A DNA stretch of 42,783 nucleotides from Chloroflexota bacterium. GTDB lineage: Bacteria; Chloroflexota; Dehalococcoidia; Lucifugimonadales; Australimonadaceae. Both the position numbers and the translations under genes were made by a program. Below are positions 4,442 to 42,678 of this stretch, one piece after another. The notes under the pieces were generated by a model. It was given only the letters and a program-made list of their open reading frames with translations. It did not search any database and had not been told where the DNA came from. How positions within the stretch are numbered: position 1 is the first letter of the stretch; every line of letters begins with the position of its first letter. The stretch covers positions 1 to 42,783 of the forward strand of contig JADFQE010000006.1 of assembly GCA_022561985.1 (NCBI GenBank), in the 5' to 3' direction.

Positions 4442-5617
4442 ATGCCCCAGGACCGGTTCAAGAAGGAGACCCTCCTCGAGGACGAGCGCGGACGGAACAT
4501 GGCCGCGGTGCTGCGCTACGGCCCTTACCTCTTCCTCTCCAGCTCCGACGGCCACCGCGACATCGTCACGGAGCGCGTCGTCCCGGAGCTCGACGGCCAG
4601 GCCGTCCCGCAGTGCAACAACGCCTATGGCCGCCAGGCCCTCCGCCTCCAGAAGGCCGGGTACCGCGGCGACGACGCCATCTGGATCGAGAACTTCACCT
4701 CCGGCCAGTCCTGGCGGCTGGAGCGCATGGCGACGTGGCCCGATCACTTCGGCGAGGTCGGCCACGCGCAGGCGGTGAGCTTCGGCGCCCAGGTCAAGAT
4801 GGCCGGCGTCAACATGCTCACCGCCGTCGTGCAGGCGCTGACGCCGGATATCGAGCGTGAGGTGATCGTCCCCCAGCCCGCGCGCGGGCGAGCGTCGCGC
4901 ATCACGCGCGCGGGCGACTTCACCTACGTGATCGGCGTGCGTGGGCGAACGGACCCGTTCACGGAGGCCGAAGCGCCCGAGGAGGTCCCCGAGCAGCTCG
5001 ACGCCGAGCACCACAACACCTACGAGTGGCTGCGGTCGCACATCGAGACGGGCGGCGGAAGCTTGGACGACTTCGTGCGGACGGACTGCGCGCTGCTCCG
5101 CATCGGCGATGCGCCACACTACCGTGCGGGCCTCAAGCGCCGTTTCGGGACCAAGGTGCCCTTCGCCGCCTATGCGGTGGGCACCCTGCTCGGCGGGCGC
5201 GGCGTGATGGAGGTCGGCGGTATCGCGGTCAATCCCGGAGGGACCAAGGAGGTCGCCTGGCTCGCCGAGGACCCCGGCGAGGCGCAGGCGGTGCGGGCGA
5301 ACGGCCTCGTGTTCTGCTCCGGCGCATCGGGGCTCGCCGACGAGCGCACAGGCGCCGTCAAGCAGGAGCTCTACGGCGACCAGCTCGGCCAGACGAAGCA
5401 GGCATTCCGGCGATTGGAGGCGGGCCTCAACCGCTTCGACTCCAGCCTCGACCGGGTGCTGCGGCTCGATGTGTTCCTGGACGACATCTACTTCGAGGAT
5501 GCGTTCATCGAGGCCGCCAGGGAGTTCTTCGGTGCCAGTCCGCCGACCATGAACATCGTCGGCGTCGACCTCGAGCACAACGCCGAGGTCGAGCTGACCG
5601 CGATCGCAGGAGCGTAG
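4442..5617 (+). CDS. Triple RidA (YjgF/YER057c/UK114) domain protein
   Basis: The 391-residue protein holds three RidA-like units: about 20-145 (YGPYLFLSSSDGHRD start), 155-275 (SRITRAGDFTYVIGVRGRTD start), and 285-391 (VRANGLVFCSGASGLADERT start, ending PPTMNIVGVDLEHNAEVELT). Single-domain RidA proteins are about 130 residues and deaminate reactive enamine/imine intermediates as trimers. A tandem of three could form a pseudo-trimer in one chain. The ATG at 4442 follows GGAGGAG; a GTG lies directly in front at 4439. It sits between the amidohydrolase and the TPP decarboxylase genes, so it may clear an imine or act as a hydrolase in the same pathway. The domain assignment is firm and the reaction is inferred. 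Confidence 0.82.
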   Translation: MPQDRFKKETLLEDERGRNMAAVLRYGPYLFLSSSDGHRDIVTERVVPELDGQAVPQCNNAYGRQALRLQKAGYRGDDAIWIENFTSGQSWRLERMATWPDHFGEVGHAQAVSFGAQVKMAGVNMLTAVVQALTPDIEREVIVPQPARGRASRITRAGDFTYVIGVRGRTDPFTEAEAPEEVPEQLDAEHHNTYEWLRSHIETGGGSLDDFVRTDCALLRIGDAPHYRAGLKRRFGTKVPFAAYAVGTLLGGRGVMEVGGIAVNPGGTKEVAWLAEDPGEAQAVRANGLVFCSGASGLADERTGAVKQELYGDQLGQTKQAFRRLEAGLNRFDSSLDRVLRLDVFLDDIYFEDAFIEAAREFFGASPPTMNIVGVDLEHNAEVELTAIAGA

Positions 5618-32646: not shown

Positions 32647-32785
32647 GGAACCCTCGATGGACGCACGTATCGACGAGGCGAATGAGCGACGCGAGTGGGC
32701 TCGCGAGGTGCTGCAGCGATGGCTCATCGACCTCGGCTACGCCCCGCTCCGTTGGGCGCAGGAGCTGCGGGCGCAGCGGAATTAG
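32639..32785 (+). CDS. Small protein of 48 residues overlapping the signal peptidase gene
   Basis: GGGAGGACGAC precedes an ATG located inside the last codons of the SipW gene (8-base overlap), which suggests coupled translation. The product (MPEEPSMDARIDEANERREW to APLRWAQELRAQRN) is predicted helical and charged, with no TM. I recognise no family. Its position suggests a role with the peptidase or with the kinase that starts 31 bases later. Confidence 0.55.
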   Translation: MPEEPSMDARIDEANERREWAREVLQRWLIDLGYAPLRWAQELRAQRN

Positions 32786-32816
32786 CAGCGGCCACGCTAC
32801 AATCCAGGGAGGGAAA

Positions 32817-35003
32817 ATGGGGATGGCGGGGATCATGGCTGCCAGCGGCTGGAGGCATCAGGACGAGGGGCTGAGCCTGGGCGCCCAATTCCGGAGCCGC
32901 TTCTCCAACACGCACCTCATGGTCGCCGTGGGGATCTTGGTGGTCGCCCTCGCGATCACCGTCGGCACATCCATCGCGGCGCGATCGCACTTCCGCTCGC
33001 TGAGCGAAGACGAGTTCGAGCACGCGGTGCTCACGGCCGCCGCCGCTATCGAAAAGAGCGTGAGCGAGAAGCTGGTCATCCTTCAATCCATCCAGGGCCT
33101 GTTCGCAACCCGCGACGACGTGACCCGCGACCAGTTCGATTCTTTCGTGATGCTCCTCGCCCGTGATGACAGCGCCATCCAGGCGCTCGAGTGGATACCG
33201 CGCATCGAGCGAGATGCCCTCGACGCTTACGTCAGACGCACGCAGGCGGAGGGATTCGCCGACTTCGCCCTCCATCCGGCCGGGGAGCGCGACGTGTACT
33301 TCCCGGTCGACTACGTGTTCCCGATGGATCCGAACCGAGCGGCGTTCGGGTTCGACCTGGCGAGCAACCCGGAGCGCCTCGCGGCACTGAACGAGTCGAG
33401 GGACACCGGTAAGTTGGTCGCCACCGCTCCGATCACCCTGGTCCAGGAGACCGGGTCACAGGCGGGGTTCTTGGTGTTCGCCCCGGTCTATCGGGGTGGC
33501 GGCGTGCCATCGACGGTGGCCGAACGCCGAGACAAGCTTGCCGGCTTCGGACTAGCCGTGTTCCGCGTCGGCGATTTCATCGACAACAGCGTCCCGGCGC
33601 CGTCGCAAGAGGAGTTCAACCTCGTCGTGTTCGACACGTTGGTGAGCGACGACACGAAGATCCATGCAGCGACCGATGCGCACCGGGGGTTGCTGGAGGC
33701 CGACGCGCTCCTCATCCAGCGCGAGCTCGACGTTGCGGGGCGCACGTGGGTGCTGTGTTTCCTCGTGCCCCGCGGATTCGGCCTTGGGGCGCTCTCCCAG
33801 AGCGCCTGGCTGCTGATCCTGATCGCGGGGTCCCTCGTCAGCCTGCTTGGTTTCGGCTTCTCGTTCCTCCTCCTCACCGGACGCGACCGGGCAATCGCAT
33901 TGGCCGGGAGAATGAACGAATCGCTGGCTGCCTCGGAGTCGCAGCGAGACCAGATGTTCGAGCTCTCCCAGGACCTCATCATCACGGCCGATGCACAGGG
34001 CAACTTCGTGTTCGTGAGCGAGGCATCACGCCGGCTCCTCGGACGTGACCCGGCGGACATGGTCGGGAAGCCCTATCTCGATTTCGTTCACCCCGAAGAT
34101 CGGGCCTCGGTGGCCAGAGCCGCGGCCCAAGTGGTGGAGGGCGACGAATTGACCGCGTTCGATTGCCGCTTCCTGCGCGCCGACGGCGAGGCGGTGTGGC
34201 TCAGCTGGAACGCGCACTGGCTCCCCGGTCTTGTATTCGCCGTTGGCCGCGACGTCACGGAGCGGCGGGAGATCGAGCGCATGAAGGATGAGTTCGTGGC
34301 GACCGTCTCCCACGAGCTCCGCACTCCCGTCACGTCGATCAAGGGCTTCTTGGAGATGCTGACGGACGATCTCGATGCGTCCATGGGCGAAGAGCAGCGC
34401 TCCTACCTGCAAGCCGCTGGGCGCAACGCCGAGCGGATGGAGCGCCTGGTCAGCGACCTCCTCGACCTCTCCAGCCTCGAAGCGGGGAGGCTGGCCGTCG
34501 AACCGGCGTTGTTCGATCTGAGGTCCGCTGTCAACGACGTCCTCTCGGCGTTGCAGCCCGATCTCGAAGAGCGGACGATCGACGTGACCATCGAGATTCC
34601 CGAGGTCCCCACGCCCCAGGCGTGGGGCGACCAACGGCGCGTGGAGCAGGTGCTCACCAACCTGCTGAGCAACGCGGTCAAGTACTCTCAGCCGGGCGCC
34701 CGGATCGAGGTCGTCGTCGCCTCGGACGACGAGGGGGACGATCCCTCGATGCTGCGGGTCGAGGTTCGGGACAACGGCATCGGCATCCCCCCCGAAGCGA
34801 TCGAGCACCTGTTCGAAAAATTCTATCGCGTCGACAATTCGTCCACGCGGTCATCGACCGGCACCGGGTTGGGGCTCGCGATCAGCAAAGCGTTGGTGGA
34901 GCTTCTGGGTGGACGGCTGTGGGTCGAGAGCGAGCTTGGGCGCGGGAGCACCTTCAGCTTCACTTTGCCGAGGGGTGCCGCTGACGCTCACGGTCCCGCG
35001 TAG
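32817..35003 (+). CDS. CHASE-PAS-HisKA-HATPase sensor histidine kinase
   Basis: The 728-residue membrane kinase has TM1 at 33-53 and an extracytoplasmic CHASE domain (about 60-310; ALEWIPRIERD, FPVDYVFPMDPNRAAFGFDL). TM2 is near 330-355 and a PAS domain (FELSQDLIITADAQGNFVFV) at about 380-480. HisKA has the phospho-acceptor His499 (TVSHELRTP), and HATPase has N, G1 and G2 boxes (NLLSNAVKYS, DNGIGIP, GTGLGLAI). CHASE domains bind small extracellular ligands. The start is the ATG at 32817 behind GGGAGGG. A second, related CHASE kinase lies at 36904-39132; shared blocks such as RGGGVPSTVAERRDKLAGFG show they are paralogues. Confidence 0.93.
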   Translation: MGMAGIMAASGWRHQDEGLSLGAQFRSRFSNTHLMVAVGILVVALAITVGTSIAARSHFRSLSEDEFEHAVLTAAAAIEKSVSEKLVILQSIQGLFATRDDVTRDQFDSFVMLLARDDSAIQALEWIPRIERDALDAYVRRTQAEGFADFALHPAGERDVYFPVDYVFPMDPNRAAFGFDLASNPERLAALNESRDTGKLVATAPITLVQETGSQAGFLVFAPVYRGGGVPSTVAERRDKLAGFGLAVFRVGDFIDNSVPAPSQEEFNLVVFDTLVSDDTKIHAATDAHRGLLEADALLIQRELDVAGRTWVLCFLVPRGFGLGALSQSAWLLILIAGSLVSLLGFGFSFLLLTGRDRAIALAGRMNESLAASESQRDQMFELSQDLIITADAQGNFVFVSEASRRLLGRDPADMVGKPYLDFVHPEDRASVARAAAQVVEGDELTAFDCRFLRADGEAVWLSWNAHWLPGLVFAVGRDVTERREIERMKDEFVATVSHELRTPVTSIKGFLEMLTDDLDASMGEEQRSYLQAAGRNAERMERLVSDLLDLSSLEAGRLAVEPALFDLRSAVNDVLSALQPDLEERTIDVTIEIPEVPTPQAWGDQRRVEQVLTNLLSNAVKYSQPGARIEVVVASDDEGDDPSMLRVEVRDNGIGIPPEAIEHLFEKFYRVDNSSTRSSTGTGLGLAISKALVELLGGRLWVESELGRGSTFSFTLPRGAADAHGPA

Positions 35004-35069
35004 GGGGCTCGAACACCGTTCGGCTCGTGATCGATGGCCCCACTGGCACGAGCATCCGTTCGTTCGGGG

Positions 35070-35205
35070 CTAGCGCGTGGTTCGCCGCGGGCGCGAGAAA
35101 GCCCGACAGACCCCTGAGGACCGCTTCGTCGTATTCGGCGATGGCCCGTTCGTAGTGGCCGGCCTCATGCAGAGCGACGCCAGACCAGTTCGTACCTGAA
35201 GCCAC
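35070..35205 (-). pseudogene. Lone TPR-like fragment
   Basis: In the 354-bp gap between the two signalling blocks, one frame reads GVALHEAGHYERAIAEYDEA, followed by VLRGL, which is a single good tetratricopeptide repeat. It begins with a GTG and is followed by unrelated residues. Nothing else of a TPR protein is present. It is probably the remnant of a deleted gene; its limits are approximate. Confidence 0.35.
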
Positions 35206-35356
35206 GCCGTCCCTCGCACTGTGTCAACCTGCGCTCGCGTTCGGCCCCGTCGCTCGGCCGCAAGGTCGGTGGTGCCGACGGGCACAAGCTTCGGCCTCCC
35301 GGACCGCAGAGCGCGTCGCCCTGTCCGCCACAGGTGCTGCGCACCTGCCCTGAGCG

Positions 35357-36373
35357 CTAGAGCTGCGCTCTTCTCAGGATCCGAAGGAGAGCGTCCTTGA
35401 ACTCATCGACGGATGAGAGGGGTTTCTGAAGCTCGGGCGGGAGGCGGGCGATCGAAAGCTGTTTGCCTGACGCTGAGGCGTCCTCCGTCCCGAACAGCAT
35501 CCGATGCTCGCGGGCCAGCGCACGGACAAGCTCCGCGAAATTCTGCTCCCCGCGCTCGACGAGCTCTCCGAGCCGTATCTGCAAGCCTTCGCGGATCTCC
35601 TTCTCCTGCAGGGCTAGCGTCATGTCGCGGAGGATCGCCAGCGTGGCCCGCTGGCCTTCGAAGACGGTGGCCACGGACGAGGCCTGGACCCGGCGCACCT
35701 CTCCGTTCGTACGCTGCACGCGATACTCATAAACGGCCGGCGCGACTTCGCCGCCCTGCTGGGCAAGGGACCGCTGGATCACCAGCTCGCGGTCGTCGGG
35801 CAGGACGTGCTTGTCGATGGGCACTCCGACGGCTTGGGTCTCGTCCTCAAGCCCGATGAGCTCGAGGTACGCGCGGTTCACGAACACCCGCATCTCTCCC
35901 ACATTCACCACGATGGCGTCGTTGACGTTGTCGACCAAGGCCCGGTATTTCGCCTCGCTTGCGCGGAGCGCCGCATCCACCTGCCGGCGCTCCCGGCGCA
36001 GCCGCTTCTGCTCGACCGCCTGAGAAACCGCCTGTCCCAAGCGCCCGAGCCGGTCCTTCAGGAGGAAGTCGGCTGCGCCCATCCTGATGCATTCGGCCGC
36101 CTTTTCATCGCCCAGGGCTCCGGTGACGATGATCGCCGGGATGTCCAGCTCCCGTTCCTGCAGGACACGCAGCGCCTTCAAGCCATCCCAGTGCGGCATC
36201 GCGTAGTCGGCGAGAACGATCTCAGGCGCATGGACCAGAGCGGCGACAAAGTCCGCCTCCGTGTCTACCAAGTCCCATTCGGGCTCGAACCCCGCGCGCC
36301 GGAGCTCGGCGACCATCAGCTCCGCATCGGCCCGGCGGTCTTCCAGGATCAACACCCGTATCGGATCAGCCAT
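35357..36373 (-). CDS. Response regulator with receiver and PAS domains
   Basis: The 338-residue protein has a receiver domain (LILEDRRADAELM, phospho-acceptor Asp56 in VLADYAMP, Lys106 in LLKDRLG), a helical linker, and a PAS domain at about 145-270 (ASEAKYRALVDNVNDAIVVN, RDMTLALQEKE with PAC end). The C-terminal helical segment of about 70 residues has no catalytic motif. It lacks an output enzyme, so it may relay a signal to a partner or regulate a kinase. GGGAGGGG precedes the ATG at 36373. It is the last gene of the four-gene minus-strand signalling operon. Confidence 0.85.
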   Translation of the reverse strand: MADPIRVLILEDRRADAELMVAELRRAGFEPEWDLVDTEADFVAALVHAPEIVLADYAMPHWDGLKALRVLQERELDIPAIIVTGALGDEKAAECIRMGAADFLLKDRLGRLGQAVSQAVEQKRLRRERRQVDAALRASEAKYRALVDNVNDAIVVNVGEMRVFVNRAYLELIGLEDETQAVGVPIDKHVLPDDRELVIQRSLAQQGGEVAPAVYEYRVQRTNGEVRRVQASSVATVFEGQRATLAILRDMTLALQEKEIREGLQIRLGELVERGEQNFAELVRALAREHRMLFGTEDASASGKQLSIARLPPELQKPLSSVDEFKDALLRILRRAQL

Positions 36374-36449
36374 GTCCCCTCCCCGCACGCAGCAGCTGAG
36401 CATCCTGCTCCGAGTCGTCCACGATCAACACAACGAGCGCATCGCCCAT
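36366..36449 (-). pseudogene. 27-codon receiver-domain fragment
   Basis: A complete short frame from ATG at 36449 reads MGDALVVLIVDDSEQDAQLL and ends 6 codons later, overlapping the start of the REC-PAS gene. The LIVDDSEQDAQLL segment is the first strand and acidic pocket of a response-regulator receiver domain. The Asp and Lys of a functional receiver are missing. It is probably the leftover start of a deleted receiver gene, now perhaps a leader peptide coupling translation to the next gene. Confidence 0.5.
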
Positions 36450-36454
36450 CCGGC

Positions 36455-36907
36455 TCACCTCCGAGGGATCCGATCAGTCGTCGGCTGTGGCACTTGGTTC
36501 AGACCAAGCCAGTAGCGAGCCAGTAGCTGAACCGCCTCGGTGAACTCGGTGAAGTCCACGGGTTTGCGTATGTAGCTGTTCGTGCCGGCCTCGTACGCCC
36601 CTTGCAGGTCTCGCTGCTCGATCGACGAAGTCATCATGACCACTGGGATCCTCTGTCCCGCAGGCTCGCTTCGCATGCGGCGGACCACCTCGATCCCGTT
36701 GAGCTTGGGCAATTTCAGGTCGAGCAGCACGAGGGAGGGCGGGTCGTTCTGAGCACAGCCGTGCTCGCCGAAGAGGTAATCGATCGCCTCGGCGCCGTCG
36801 CGGCGGGTATCGACCCGCTCGACGGCCGCGACGCCCCGCAACGCTTTGAGCGCCAAGGCCTCGTCATAGGGACTGTCTTCGACCAACAGTATCTTCGCGG
36901 GCCTCAT
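36455..36907 (-). CDS. Single-domain response regulator, Rcp1-like
   Basis: The 150-residue stand-alone receiver has the acidic pocket in ILLVEDSPYDEAL, phospho-acceptor Asp63 (VLLDLKLPKLNG), Thr/Ser in MMTSSIEQRD and Lys115 in YIRKPVDF. The YDEALALKAL and DLKLPKLNGIEV forms are typical of regulators that partner with phytochrome-like kinases. Its ATG overlaps the stop of the kinase gene (ATGA), a sure sign of co-translation, so the kinase at 36904 is its likely donor. There is no output domain, so it acts by protein contact. Confidence 0.92.
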   Translation of the reverse strand: MRPAKILLVEDSPYDEALALKALRGVAAVERVDTRRDGAEAIDYLFGEHGCAQNDPPSLVLLDLKLPKLNGIEVVRRMRSEPAGQRIPVVMMTSSIEQRDLQGAYEAGTNSYIRKPVDFTEFTEAVQLLARYWLGLNQVPQPTTDRIPRR

Positions 36908-39132
36908 GCCGTTCCTCCTTGGTTGCCCTCTGGGAGGGTGAAATAGAACGTGGCGCCCTCTTCCACCGCTCCCTCGGCCCAGATCTTCCCGCCATGCCGG
37001 GCGATGATCCGATGCACGATGGCAAGGCCGACGCCCGTTCCTTCGAACTCACCGACGCTGTGCAGCCTTTGGAACGGCTGAAAGAGCTTGTCGGCGTAGT
37101 CCATATCGAACCCTGCGCCGTCGTCGCGGACGAAGTAGACCGGACCGCCCTCACGCGCCTCGACGCCGAACTCGATCCCCGCGTGCTCGTGCCGGCTCGT
37201 GAACTTCCAGGCGTTGCGCAGCAGGTTCTCGAGGGCGATGTGGATCAAACGCTCGTCCGCGACGGCGACGGCAGACTCGACGATGGTGAACTCGACGGCC
37301 CGCGCTCCGTCCGTCTCGCGCAGCTCGTCGGCGATCCCACGGGCGATGGCCCCGAGGTCCACCGGCTCGATGATCATGTCGCTGCGGAACACGCGGGAGA
37401 GCCGCAGGATGTCGTCGATCAGGCGCCCCATCTCCTGGCTGGCGTCGCGCACCCAGTGCAGGTACTCCTTGCCGGTGTCGTCGAGCTTGTCCTCGTACTC
37501 CCGAAGGAGCGCGAGGCTGAAGCCATCGATGCCGCGAAGCGGCGCGCGCAGGTCGTGGGAAACGGAGTAAGCGAAGGACTCGAGCTCCGCGTTGGCAGCC
37601 TCGAGCTGCGACGTGCGCTCCTCCACGCGGTGCTCCAGCGTGGCGTTGAGGGCGGTCAGATCAGCCTCGGCCCGCATGCGCGCCGTGACGTCCTTGAGGT
37701 AGGTCTGCGTGACGGGGGGGCCGTCCGGTCGGGTCCGTATGCTTCCGACGCCCTCAACCTCGATGGGTGTCCCGTCCTTCGCTTGAAACGTTGCACGGAA
37801 CTCGCGGACGTCCCCGGTCATGATCCCAGCGAATACCCCGCGGCAATGCTCGAGCGAGTCTGGGTGAATGACGTCCCACACGGTCATGGCGTGCGTTTCC
37901 CGCTCGGTGTAGCCGAGCCGCTCTATCCACGCGCGGTTCACGAACTGCAGCTTCGCCTCCGCATCGGAGCTCTGGATCAGGTCGTGCGTGCCGTGGAGCA
38001 GCGCGGCGTACGCGGTTTCTCGTTGTCCGATCTCATCGTTGGAGAGCTGAAGCTTCGCGGCGGCGAGCAACGCCCGCTGCCTGCCTCTCATGAGGAGACG
38101 ACCCGAGGCAAAAACAACGCCCGCGAATACCACCCCACCCACCAGCACGACCAGCCAGCCGTAGAGAAGGATGCCGCTGACCCCGAAACCTCTGGGCCCC
38201 ACGAACGTGAGGTCGAGTCGCTGCCCGGCGATCTCGATGGAGCGCTCGACGGTCACATCGGCGGCATCGAGCAGGCGCTCGGCGTCCTCCTCGGTCGAGA
38301 ATAAGCGGTGGGGGACTCCATCGACTGCTCGGTCGCTGACCACCAGGCCCAGCTCGGAATGGAACGAGGGGGGAAGGGCCGCCTCCAGGAAATCGCCGAA
38401 CCGGAAGACGCCAAGAGAGAAGCCAGCAAGCGCCTCGCGGCGCTCGCCCACGGTCGCTGGCACGCCGCCGCCTTCGTACACGGGCACGAATAGCAGGAAC
38501 GCGAACTGCGCCTCCGCCTCTTGCACCAGGGTGATGTGTTCCGTCGCGGTGGGCCGACCAGAGTCCCTCGCTTCGTTCAGCGCCGCCATCCTGGCGGGGT
38601 TGGACCCCAGATCGAATCCGACAGCGCTCTCGTTGCCCGCGAGCGGCTCCACGAAGGCAACGGGGAAATACTCATCCGCGGCCCTCTCGGGATGGATCGA
38701 CGCCTCGGCGATCCCGAGGCTAGCACGGAGCTCCATCTCGAAGGCCTCCCGATCGGCGGCCAACACCCTGGGGATCCACTCCAGCGCTTGGACCCCCTGT
38801 GCCTCGTTCAAGAACCCGGACACGAACGCCCTGAATTCATGCCGTGTGACCTGCTCGCTGGCGTCGAAGAGGGACCGGATCGCGGTCACCTCCCCGATGC
38901 TCGCTTGCACCTGGAGATTGATCGCGTCCATGGCGGATCCGACCGCATGCTCGATCGCTTCGCGATTCTCCTCGGCCAGCACGGATCGCATGGCGAGCGT
39001 GCCCACGGCGGTCAACGCTAGGAGGACGATGGTTACAGAGGCGAGCACCACCGAAGGGAACAGGCGCCACGCGCCGGTCTCCGGCGCTGCCGGGTCCTCC
39101 GATCCACGTCCCGACACCCTCGACACAAGCAT
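36904..39132 (-). CDS. CHASE-PAS sensor kinase with phytochrome-type kinase core
   Basis: The 742-residue protein has TM1 at about 28-48, a CHASE domain (ALEWIPRVLAADREAF, EYFPVAFVEPLAGNESAVGF), TM2 near 325-350, and a PAS/PAC domain (about 370-480, KLQFVNRAWIERLGYTERET). A coiled coil (ATLEHRVEERTSQLEAANAE) follows. HisKA has His526 in YSVSHDLRAPLRGIDG, and the HATPase has N, G1 and G2 boxes (LENLLRNAWKFTS, DDGAGFD, GTGVGLAI). The SHDLRAPLRG form and long coiled coil resemble cyanobacterial phytochrome kinases. I chose the ATG at 39132 behind GGAG. It overlaps the Rcp1-like regulator and is a paralogue of the kinase at 32817. Confidence 0.92.
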   Translation of the reverse strand: MLVSRVSGRGSEDPAAPETGAWRLFPSVVLASVTIVLLALTAVGTLAMRSVLAEENREAIEHAVGSAMDAINLQVQASIGEVTAIRSLFDASEQVTRHEFRAFVSGFLNEAQGVQALEWIPRVLAADREAFEMELRASLGIAEASIHPERAADEYFPVAFVEPLAGNESAVGFDLGSNPARMAALNEARDSGRPTATEHITLVQEAEAQFAFLLFVPVYEGGGVPATVGERREALAGFSLGVFRFGDFLEAALPPSFHSELGLVVSDRAVDGVPHRLFSTEEDAERLLDAADVTVERSIEIAGQRLDLTFVGPRGFGVSGILLYGWLVVLVGGVVFAGVVFASGRLLMRGRQRALLAAAKLQLSNDEIGQRETAYAALLHGTHDLIQSSDAEAKLQFVNRAWIERLGYTERETHAMTVWDVIHPDSLEHCRGVFAGIMTGDVREFRATFQAKDGTPIEVEGVGSIRTRPDGPPVTQTYLKDVTARMRAEADLTALNATLEHRVEERTSQLEAANAELESFAYSVSHDLRAPLRGIDGFSLALLREYEDKLDDTGKEYLHWVRDASQEMGRLIDDILRLSRVFRSDMIIEPVDLGAIARGIADELRETDGARAVEFTIVESAVAVADERLIHIALENLLRNAWKFTSRHEHAGIEFGVEAREGGPVYFVRDDGAGFDMDYADKLFQPFQRLHSVGEFEGTGVGLAIVHRIIARHGGKIWAEGAVEEGATFYFTLPEGNQGGTA

Positions 39133-39437
39133 CACGCGCTCCTTCGACCCGTTCTTCGCTTACGGCCGATTCTAGGAGGTTGCAAGGCCGGCGGCGTAAA
39201 CAAGACATAAATTCTTGGGGCCATATCGCGTGCACCGAGCAGGCCGAAGCGCAGGAAAGGGCAAGGCCTCGTCGCCGCACTCTACGAGGGGGCCACCGAG
39301 GTCGGGTGCATGGAGGGGGAGATCACACGGCTGTTGCTGGACGGCGTCGGGTACGGGCTGCGCCCAGGCCTCAGCCGAGCGTGCAGTTGCGCTACGTGCA
39401 GGCTGCGGCGAGCCGGGGCGGCGCATAGCCACCCCCG
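39133..39437. other. 305-bp gap without a supportable gene
   Basis: This lies between two minus-strand signalling genes. A TAGAAT at 39174-39169 on the minus strand could be the -10 of the kinase promoter, with no convincing -35. I see nothing else. Confidence 0.35.
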
Positions 39438-40148
39438 CTAGACGGTGGGCGGCTTGCGGTAGCGATAGCCGAAGCCGCGCACCGTGTCGATCAGCGTGGG
39501 CTTGGCCGGGTCGGCCTCGATCTTGCGCCGCAGGTAGCCGATGTACAGCCGGACCACGTCGAGCGACTCGGCGTACTCCTCGCCCCAAACGCGGTCGAGT
39601 AGCTGTTCTTGCGTGAGCACCTGTCCGGGGTGGGCGATCAGTGCGGCGAGCAGACGGAATTCGGTTGGGCTGAGGTCGATCCGCTCACCACGCGCGACGA
39701 CCTCATGGTGCGGGAAGTCGACCGACAGCTCGCCGTCGTTGAAAACGGTCAGTTCGGTCTCATCGGGAGCCATGGCCGCTCGCCGGAGGGCGGCTTCCAC
39801 TCGGGCTTCCAGCTCATCGCCGCTGAAGGGTTTGGCGATGTAATCGTCGGCGCCGGACTTGAGTCCTTTGATCTTGTCCCGCTCCTCAGCTCTGGCGGAC
39901 AGCATGATCACGGGCACCGTCGAGACCTCCCGGAGGCGCCGGAGCACCTCCCAGCCATCCATGACGGGCATGGCCAGGTCGAGGACGACAAGGTCGGGGC
40001 GCTCTCGGTAGAACAGCCGGATCCCCTCCTGACCGTCCGCGGCACCGATGGTCTCGTAGCCCGCGCGCTTGAGGCGCGACGTCACAAGGAGCCGGACATC
40101 GTCCTCATCGTCGATAACGAGCACTCGCTTCTTGGTGGCGCCAACCAC
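39438..40148 (-). CDS. OmpR/PhoB-family response regulator
   Basis: The 236-residue protein has a receiver with acidic pocket VLVIDDEDDV, Asp57 (VVLDLAMPVMDG), MLSAR and Lys in YIAKPFSGDE. The winged helix has LSPTEFRLLAALIAHPGQVL, VVRLYIGYLRRKIE and a terminal VRGFGYRYRKP. The start is a GTG at 40148 behind GGGAGG. It is transcribed in the same direction as the CHASE kinase downstream at 36904, 305 bases away, and may be its DNA-binding partner or respond to the kinase at 32817. Confidence 0.92.
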   Translation of the reverse strand: MVGATKKRVLVIDDEDDVRLLVTSRLKRAGYETIGAADGQEGIRLFYRERPDLVVLDLAMPVMDGWEVLRRLREVSTVPVIMLSARAEERDKIKGLKSGADDYIAKPFSGDELEARVEAALRRAAMAPDETELTVFNDGELSVDFPHHEVVARGERIDLSPTEFRLLAALIAHPGQVLTQEQLLDRVWGEEYAESLDVVRLYIGYLRRKIEADPAKPTLIDTVRGFGYRYRKPPTV

Positions 40149-40492: not shown

Positions 40493-40757
40493 GCTCTCGA
40501 TCTCGTTCGCAACCGGTCCACGCAACCCTTTCGTTAACGGAATGTTGATGGTGGGGGCTTTGCGATTTATGCGGTATTGAGCCCTGGGGCGCGAGACTGG
40601 TAGCGTGGGCGGGTCCGCAGGGGCCGGTCAACTCACACACAGCACCTACACGACACCACGCGCGGTCTCACCCGCGCTGCTTAACGTTGCTCTTGTCAGC
40701 CAAATCTATCCCGTGGCCGGCAAGCACGCAGAGAGTGGCAGCGCAAAGGAGCGAGTG
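40493..40757 (+). other. Leader region of the TasA-like gene
   Basis: The 265 bases between the terminator and the TasA-like start hold no credible gene. A weak promoter (TTGATG 40545-40550, 17 bases, TATGCG 40568-40573) would leave a leader of about 180 bases with several GC-rich segments. I could not match it to a known riboswitch. Confidence 0.3.
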
Positions 40758-41324
40758 ATGGTCGCAATGGCAGCAAGGAACGTCGAAGGATTCCTGAACC
40801 TGAAGATGGTGTTGGTGGCGCTGGTGTTGGCAGTCGCGGTGGCGATCCCGTCGATCGGCGGAACGTTCGCTGACTTCACGGCCTCGACGAGCAACCCGGG
40901 CAACGTCTTCCAGACGGCGACCCTCACGATGACGACCGACCACCCGGCAGCGGACTTCGTGCAGATCGGCGACATGATCCCCGGCGACAGCGCGACGCGC
41001 ACGGTCACGGTCTCGAACACGGGCTCGGTGCCCTTCACCTACGCGGTGACCATGGCCAACGAGGGGGGCCCCGCCTCTGCGATGTGGACGAACGGTGTCA
41101 ATGGGCTCCAGGTTGAGCTGTCGAACGCCGTTGGCGTGCTCTACGACGGCCCTGTCGCCAGCCTCAGCTCCGTCGAGACAGGCATCGAAGTGGCGGCGGG
41201 TAGCACCGAGGTGCTGACCTACGTCTTCTCCATGCCCAACTCCGCAGGCAACTCCTTCCAGGGTCTGTCCCAGGGCGTTGGCATCACCTACGACGCCACC
41301 CAGCTCGCCGGCGCGGCCCGATAA
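40758..41324 (+). CDS. TasA/camelysin-like secreted protein with SipW-type signal
   Basis: The 188-residue precursor has a basic N-terminus, a hydrophobic core (about 17-35) and the cleavage region GGTFADFTASTSNPGNVFQT, which follows the TxAxFxDxxxxxGNxFxxG pattern of SipW-processed proteins. The rest is a beta-rich domain (DMIPGDSATRTVTVSNTGSV) like TasA/CalY fibre subunits. GGAG precedes the ATG at good spacing. A strong terminator follows directly, so it is transcribed alone and probably abundant. With the SipW-type peptidase at 32086 it suggests a surface fibre or biofilm matrix component; assembly into fibres is inferred. Confidence 0.82.
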   Translation: MVAMAARNVEGFLNLKMVLVALVLAVAVAIPSIGGTFADFTASTSNPGNVFQTATLTMTTDHPAADFVQIGDMIPGDSATRTVTVSNTGSVPFTYAVTMANEGGPASAMWTNGVNGLQVELSNAVGVLYDGPVASLSSVETGIEVAAGSTEVLTYVFSMPNSAGNSFQGLSQGVGITYDATQLAGAAR

Positions 41325-41607: not shown

Positions 41608-42678
41608 CTATTGCGTCAGGGGTGGATAGAACTCGGTCCGTGGGTGGTGGAGCGCCCAGGCCCAGTCGAAGGCGGACGAGTGCGGCAAGACCCGGAGCGC
41701 TTCGCCCGCCAGCGCTCCCTCGATCGCGATGCCGAGACCGCCGTTCCACACGCTCCCCGTGGTCGTGTCCACGAGCCGCCCATCCGCCCACTTGAACTCC
41801 AGCGTGCCCTCGGCCGTCTCTCGCAGAAAGATGTGGACCGAGCCTTCGTCGGGGTTCGCGTAGACGAGCACGGGCCTCTCACCGATGGTGTCGTTGAGCG
41901 CGACCAACTCGCCCACTGCGTCGACGTACCACGCCTTGGAATCGTCGCCAAGCATGACTCCCGCCACCTCGCCACCCCGGGGCCTCGCGAAGGGGTCCGC
42001 GGCCGCCCGCGGGGGCGGGAGGCCGTCGGGGTCAGCGAGCACCACCGTGTCCGGGTGCTCGCTGACCCACGCCGACCAAGTCTCCACGGCTGCGGGGATG
42101 CCCTCCAGCCGCACTCCGGCGTAGTCCCCGAGGATGCTCAAGCCCGTCGGCTGCGACCAGAAGCTCTCTGTTTCGTGATCCCACCAGACCATAGCCTGGA
42201 GGAACAGCCCGCCCTGGTTGCCAAAGGTGTGGGGCACCCCGTCGATCCTCCGGTCGTGCACGAGACCGGTGGCGCAGATCGGTCACCAGGTTGCCAAGAT
42301 CGGCACGCCCCCAACGACGTCGTTGACCATCTCCCGCCGCCGCAAGATATGCACCGGGTAGGCGCGCGGATCGCCGTTGATCGATAGGCCGATGACGAGA
42401 TCCGCGTCCTTCAGTCCCGCCTCGGACGGACTGATGAACGTCGGTTCGTAGATCGGTTTGATGGAATCCCGGGGTATGAGCGTGTGCAGCGAGCCGCCCA
42501 CTTCGAGCGCGTAGCGCACCTCGGACGTCGTACCGCCGCCCTCGAACGCCCGCGCGGCAGACGCGCCGGGTGCCGCAGGCGTTGCGCCGAACGGCGCGAC
42601 CCGCTGGCCACAACCGGACAAGGCGATGGCTGCAACCGCCGCGAGTAACAGACCCGCGGACCACCTGCGGCCATTCAC
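41608..42678 (-). CDS. DUF3179 lipoprotein, probable selenoprotein (in-frame UGA = Sec132)
   Basis: Read through one UGA (42285-42283), this frame gives a continuous 356-residue protein. It has a lipoprotein signal (LSGC, Cys23), IPRDSIKPIYEPTFISPSEA, DPRAYPVHILRRREMVNDVV, then ILATW-U-PICATGLVHDRR, and on through DHETESFWSQPTG and AAVETWSAWVSEHPDTVVL. That is the DUF3179 pattern, in which the family has TYCPLC; the UGA falls on the first Cys and Cys135 is retained (UxxC). A SECIS-like hairpin follows. The GTG start overlaps the stop of the upstream frame (GTGA) and has GAGGGAG. The function of DUF3179 is unknown; a UxxC site suggests an extracytoplasmic redox role. The alternative is a nonsense mutation. 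Confidence 0.82.
42247..42272 (-). promoter_or_regulatory. Bacterial SECIS-like hairpin downstream of the in-frame UGA
   Basis: Starting 11 bases after the UGA, CC-A-CCGGTC pairs with GACCGG-A-GG: 6 perfect base pairs, one A-A mismatch, then 2 more. The apical loop is UCGUGCAC, with GU at bases 22-23 after the UGA. In E. coli fdhF the loop GU lies at 20-21. Such apical-loop G/U residues contact SelB. Confidence 0.65.

Follow-up and report, generated by a model that had tools for sequence, protein, structure and literature searches.

A DUF3179 gene for a predicted lipoprotein, with an in-frame UGA very probably read as selenocysteine, in a SAR202-type Chloroflexota bacterium

A gene of the DUF3179 family was found at positions 41608–42678 on the minus strand of the window, that is, of the whole 42,783-nucleotide stretch of DNA that was analysed. 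The gene was delimited by translation with TGA read as U and by its match to PF11376; it starts with GTG at 42678 and comprises 356 codons followed by TAG. From 42678 to 41608 the frame contains a single in-frame TGA, codon 132 (42285–42283), and is otherwise open. This codon occupies the first position of a UPIC motif, in the context TW-U-PIC, and both the translation and the corresponding column in homologues suggest that it is read as selenocysteine (Sec). Its predicted resolving partner in the UxxC pair, Cys135 (42274–42276), is invariant in the alignment. The product is a predicted lipoprotein, as an earlier note on this DNA had proposed. Inspection of the translation revealed a putative signal peptide encoded at 42610–42678 (minus strand), in which residues 20–23, LSGC, satisfy the lipobox pattern [LVI][ASTVI][GAS]C with Cys23. 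Cys23, Sec132 and Cys135 are the only Cys or Sec residues in the protein.

The earlier note had joined two adjacent minus-strand frames into one gene with DUF3179 homology running across the UGA, and the profile comparisons bore this out. The joined protein matched PF11376 with E 1.3e-56 and 192.7 bits, the gathering cut-off being 27 bits. The 131 aa piece upstream of the UGA alone covered profile positions 1–64 (E 4.8e-14), and the 217 aa piece downstream alone covered positions 75–152 and beyond (E 5.6e-30). Both pieces, which lie in the same frame, were separately above the cut-off and in the correct order. GC3 was 0.84 upstream and 0.88 downstream of the TGA, indicating that codon structure is kept downstream, and no decay was seen elsewhere in the gene. 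No NCBIfam model matched the protein; such genes are thus likely to be entered as broken or truncated in standard annotation.

Only 105 bases of the contig precede the start codon, so the promoter and the upstream neighbour lie outside the view. Adjoining the gene on its other side is a plus-strand frame (40605–41324) with a weak Camelysin (Peptidase_M73) match. Farther downstream of the gene, the window has a cluster at 32682–40148 that comprises histidine kinases with CHASE domains, encoded on both strands, together with receiver/PAS proteins and a regulator of the OmpR type. Across 79 DUF3179 loci, leu genes, named by eye from sequence, were near 10–13, which is probably lineage synteny; beyond these, no conserved functional neighbour pointing to a substrate was found at the 79 loci.

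The predicted structure of the protein consists of two half-domains. The AlphaFold2 model had an overall pLDDT of 83, exceeding 90 across most of the domain, and the N-terminal half alone gave 94.8. The N-terminal half-domain (residues 66–222; 42013–42483, minus strand) carries the Sec motif and is Rieske-like in the model, without Fe-S ligands. The C-terminal half-domain (residues 228–356; 41611–41997, minus strand) is a duplicate of the first without the Sec/Cys motif. The two halves aligned with each other in hhalign (probability 99.9, E 1.4e-33), and DUF3179 is therefore an internal duplication in which only the first half has the Sec motif. With VIA-align, the N-terminal half gave Z 8.4 to 3c0d over 97 residues (rmsd 3.6), and the C-terminal half, from the whole model, gave a best Z of 8.2 to Rieske ferredoxins over 92 residues. 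The matches listed for both halves were Rieske-fold chains, at rmsd 3–3.6. Foldseek matches to the Rieske fold were weak (E 0.035 and 0.1), and when the profiles of the two halves were compared with Rieske sequences from this lineage, neither reached significance (probability 1.7 and 6.2). The halves thus resemble the Rieske fold to a moderate degree, and a similar predicted fold, not Rieske homology, is claimed. The CxH/CxxH cluster ligands of Rieske proteins are absent from the window protein; by the order of secondary-structure elements in the model, the UPxC turn would precede the place of the Rieske CxH. No solved structure of a sequence relative was found. Matches to the Rieske domain itself numbered 54 in the 2.4 Mb genome of the window and 66–85 in some relatives, a very large expansion.

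DUF3179 occurs at six places in the genome of the window, three with exactly one TGA and three without (C44, C87 and C33). The TGA falls at the same codon in all three UGA paralogues, the motifs being TWUPIC in the window gene, TWUPLC in C34 and TYUIKC in C102. The earlier note had placed the UGA at the family Cys position and had called for a search for UGA/Cys alternation among relatives, and this alternation was found. In 116 distinct genes from the same genome and its order, the column held TGA in 76, TGC in 33, TGT in seven and no other codon; the sample favoured TGA-flagged rows, so 76 of 116 is not a frequency, but such a choice does not account for the lack of a fourth codon. The second Cys (Cys135) was kept throughout the 116 genes. 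Elsewhere in the domain, one TGA and three TAA/TAG codons were found among 34,453 residues of these homologues. The concentration of TGA at the Sec column is thus beyond chance.

A set of genes from named genomes that was not selected by TGA had TGA at this column in 64 of 89 and Cys in 25 of 89. One of the two patterns used in that scan required Cys at the column, so the 64 TGA genes would, if anything, be too low a count; the filter on motifs kept only C or U where a motif was found, which makes the set a weaker test for other residues. A protein-only scan of the named-genome contigs gave no match, and the matches came from an alignment scan. The contig titles were mostly those of SAR202, Dehalococcoidia, Anaerolineales and Caldilineae metagenome-assembled genomes (MAGs), and UGA forms were also present in Acidimicrobiia, Nitriliruptorales and Actinomycetes MAGs.

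A tree of 205 rows built with FastTree needed 11 Sec/Cys changes, of which starred branches force at least five. The neighbours of the window gene in this tree were Sec genes plus two of the Cys type; its nearest relatives are 50–62% identical. Selection was measured on a paralogue rather than on the window gene itself: among the UGA genes available, C34 and the gene of genome G002 were the closest pair (89% identical). This pair gave dN 0.062 and dS 0.23 before the UGA and dN 0.063 and dS 0.31 after it. Purifying selection thus continues past the UGA in the C34 paralogue.

Some DUF3179 genes carry a second in-frame UGA. In two Sec-DUF3179 orthologues, L169 (around 6237; CP046147.1, Candidatus Lucifugimonas marina JH1073) and L065, it precedes the Sec codon by eight codons (EVGULPVLVSWUPIC), where relatives have Gly. 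The JH1073 genome is described as closed PacBio; a paralogue in it, at about 283.2 kb of CP046147.1, contains one UGA. The second UGA in L169 and L065 could mean that the gene is broken, that there is an error or that a second codon is recoded. In another DUF3179 gene (L188, 6001–6837), the second UGA falls in frame within the C-terminal half (TLTFUWEEG) and not near the Sec motif. In an Acidimicrobiaceae MAG (L206), Cys and Sec copies of DUF3179 stand in tandem at 5043 and 6195.

Downstream of the UGA, a hairpin resembling a bacterial selenocysteine insertion element (SECIS) was identified by folding and covariation at 42250–42269 (minus strand). It has a 6-bp stem, CCGGUC/GACCGG, and an 8-nt loop, UCGUGCAC. 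Counted from the U of the UGA, the hairpin spans nt 17–36, with nt 17–22 paired with nt 31–36. Among the distinct UGA genes, 114 of 126 had the complete 6-bp stem, but a single one of the 60 Cys genes did; Fisher's test gave p 4e-35, which is not a true probability because the genes are related. Alternative pairing registers gave a stem in 0–2 genes, and synonymous codon resampling gave one in a mean of 3.3 and a maximum of 9 of 126. The sole Cys gene with the stem was the Cys copy of L206, which has the UGA copy adjoining it in the same contig and therefore looks like a recent Sec-to-Cys change.

Two hairpin registers, one loop base apart, were found among relatives. Covariation was examined in 20 rows picked for fitting one of these registers; there, four of the six pairs had changes on both sides with all cells pairing, the covariation score was 0.529 against 0.214 +/- 0.033 for shuffled rows, and shifting the partner along destroyed the pairing. 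The folding energy of the window hairpin showed no excess stability over shuffles (z -0.09), so the case for the hairpin rests on covariation, not energy. The published bSECIS model has a G in the first two positions of the apical loop, a UGA-loop spacing of 16–37 nt and an MFE <= -7.5 kcal/mol (PMC13188914). The window hairpin fits this model in spacing and energy. Of 76 UGA genes, 75 retain the loop G at nt 25; it is the third of the 8 loop nt when the strict 6-bp stem of the window is counted, where the model wants the first two, and the second or first position in relatives with longer stems. A scan of the window for frames with a UGA plus a hairpin was positive for 12 of 50 candidates, the window gene included, and is therefore unspecific.

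The genome of the window (2.39 Mb in 153 contigs, 89% complete) contains the selenocysteine machinery for which the earlier note had suggested a search. A tRNA-Sec (selC) with anticodon TCA scored 68.2 bits, above the Rfam cut-off. The genes selB (335 bits, cut-off 242), selA (515 bits, cut-off 268) and selD (390 bits, cut-off 125) were all present, and selA was above its cut-off in 127 of 147 relatives. The selD gene (L019, G000:C37:6788-7708) is itself a UGA-containing selenoprotein gene, with one in-frame TGA in the N-terminal active-site motif CAG-U-AGK. Among the matches listed for Rieske proteins, selA and selB, there were zero internal stops, so UGA does not serve as a sense codon in general.

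The alternation of UGA with Cys codons, the covarying hairpin and the Sec machinery in the genome uphold the earlier proposal of a probable selenoprotein. On strong comparative evidence, UGA 132 is very probably decoded as selenocysteine, and the gene, although apparently interrupted by a stop codon, very probably yields an intact envelope protein that contains selenium. In the mechanism that we propose for this DUF3179 selenoprotein of a SAR202-type Chloroflexota bacterium (Dehalococcoidia), tRNA-Sec and SelB would decode UGA 132, directed by the stem-loop lying 16 nt beyond the first UGA base. The product would be a lipoprotein composed of two duplicated Rieske-like half-domains, the first of which has the UxxC redox pair at a beta-hairpin turn, and a Sec132-Cys135 selenenylsulfide may form in the working step of an oxidoreductase. 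The UxxC motif suggests a selenoenzyme and the lipobox an extracytoplasmic location; motif, Sec/Cys exchange and location together favour, with some reserve, an extracytoplasmic thiol/selenol-disulfide oxidoreductase. More tentatively, and against a slight balance of doubt, DUF3179 may be a tandem Rieske-fold scaffold that lost its Fe-S ligands, the selenol/thiol pair at a neighbouring hairpin turn having become the redox centre. To our knowledge, the Rieske-type fold is not known to carry Sec.

The most durable competing explanation accepts the selenoprotein and differs on its function: the UxxC pair would bind a metal or metalloid, for example in Cu or Hg capture, instead of catalysing thiol-disulfide exchange. 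UxxC is also found in metal-handling selenoproteins of the published lists (PMC9312934, PMC13188914), and the fold matches of DUF3179 are not thioredoxin-like. However, the protein has a single Cys/Sec pair besides the lipobox Cys, and the recurring neighbours, in so far as they were annotated, included no recognisable metal-resistance genes. Metal binding is rather unlikely, and the oxidoreductase reading is preferred. Much less probable is that UGA is read as Cys or Trp, through a changed genetic code or plain readthrough. That UGA alternates with Cys codons only would agree with such decoding, but no UGA occurs within the matches listed for Rieske proteins, selA and selB, the Sec pathway is complete, and the covarying hairpin of the UGA genes is missing from the Cys genes. 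Finally, the nonsense mutation that the earlier note had named as the competing explanation, whether a TGC-to-TGA change (a single base) or a sequencing error in a decaying or truncated gene, would suit a lone in-frame stop near a contig end in a fragmented draft assembly of 153 contigs, but is excluded for practical purposes by the recurrence of TGA at this codon (76 of 116 order genes, 64 of 89 named-genome genes), by a hairpin specific to UGA genes, and by kept downstream codon structure with no further interior stops.

A DUF3179 selenoprotein was reportedly found by Zhang and Gladyshev in 2007 in an Olavius algarvensis symbiont. The earlier note had mentioned, as unverified, that some annotations label DUF3179 a possible selenoprotein, and this proved correct. 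One published list gives DUF3179, pfam11376, with the motif UxxC/T, citing Zhang and Gladyshev 2007 (PMC9312934), and a second also lists it as a predicted selenoprotein (PMC13188914). The window gene therefore adds a member to a known predicted selenoprotein family, not a new family. In the three papers found to mention DUF3179, no function for the family was seen. Compared by listing, the window gene and the listed selenoprotein share the Pfam family, the UxxC motif and Sec at the first Cys. The listed case is hosted by a deltaproteobacterial symbiont, whereas the window gene belongs to SAR202/Dehalococcoidia, where three Sec paralogues occur together in one genome and the covarying SECIS set is large.

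Cys-form DUF3179 proteins of the same genomes (TFCPLC/TWCPVC) share the family and the motif, with Cys in place of Sec. They differ in lacking the SECIS hairpin, and a widespread Cys paralogue has CPLCNSA where the Sec form has UPIC-TG. Rieske [2Fe-2S] ferredoxins and NirD-type Rieske-fold proteins moderately resemble the half-domains in predicted fold (Z 8.2–8.4 over 92–97 residues), but DUF3179 differs in its tandem duplication, in having no CxH...CxxH ligands and in its non-significant profile similarity. The UxxC thioredoxin-like and Prx-like selenoproteins of the GOS lists (PMC2398784) have the UxxC redox motif and Sec/Cys exchange in common with DUF3179; their fold is different, and no thioredoxin-like match was among the top structural matches.

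The present analysis adds that Sec-DUF3179 is abundant in SAR202/Dehalococcoidia and present in Acidimicrobiia, with three in one genome, and that the arrangement of a stop codon plus an RNA hairpin is widespread in the lineage. Sec and Cys DUF3179 paralogues coexist in one genome. The cultured SAR202 isolate Candidatus Lucifugimonas marina JH1073 has Sec-DUF3179 genes, and Sec incorporation and function are therefore directly testable. DUF3179 selenoproteins previously had one line in review tables; here they emerge as a large family that uses Sec in a widespread marine lineage. If the tandem Rieske-fold reading is true, a surface-anchored Sec redox protein would be a main user of the SAR202 Sec machinery and would have expanded there.
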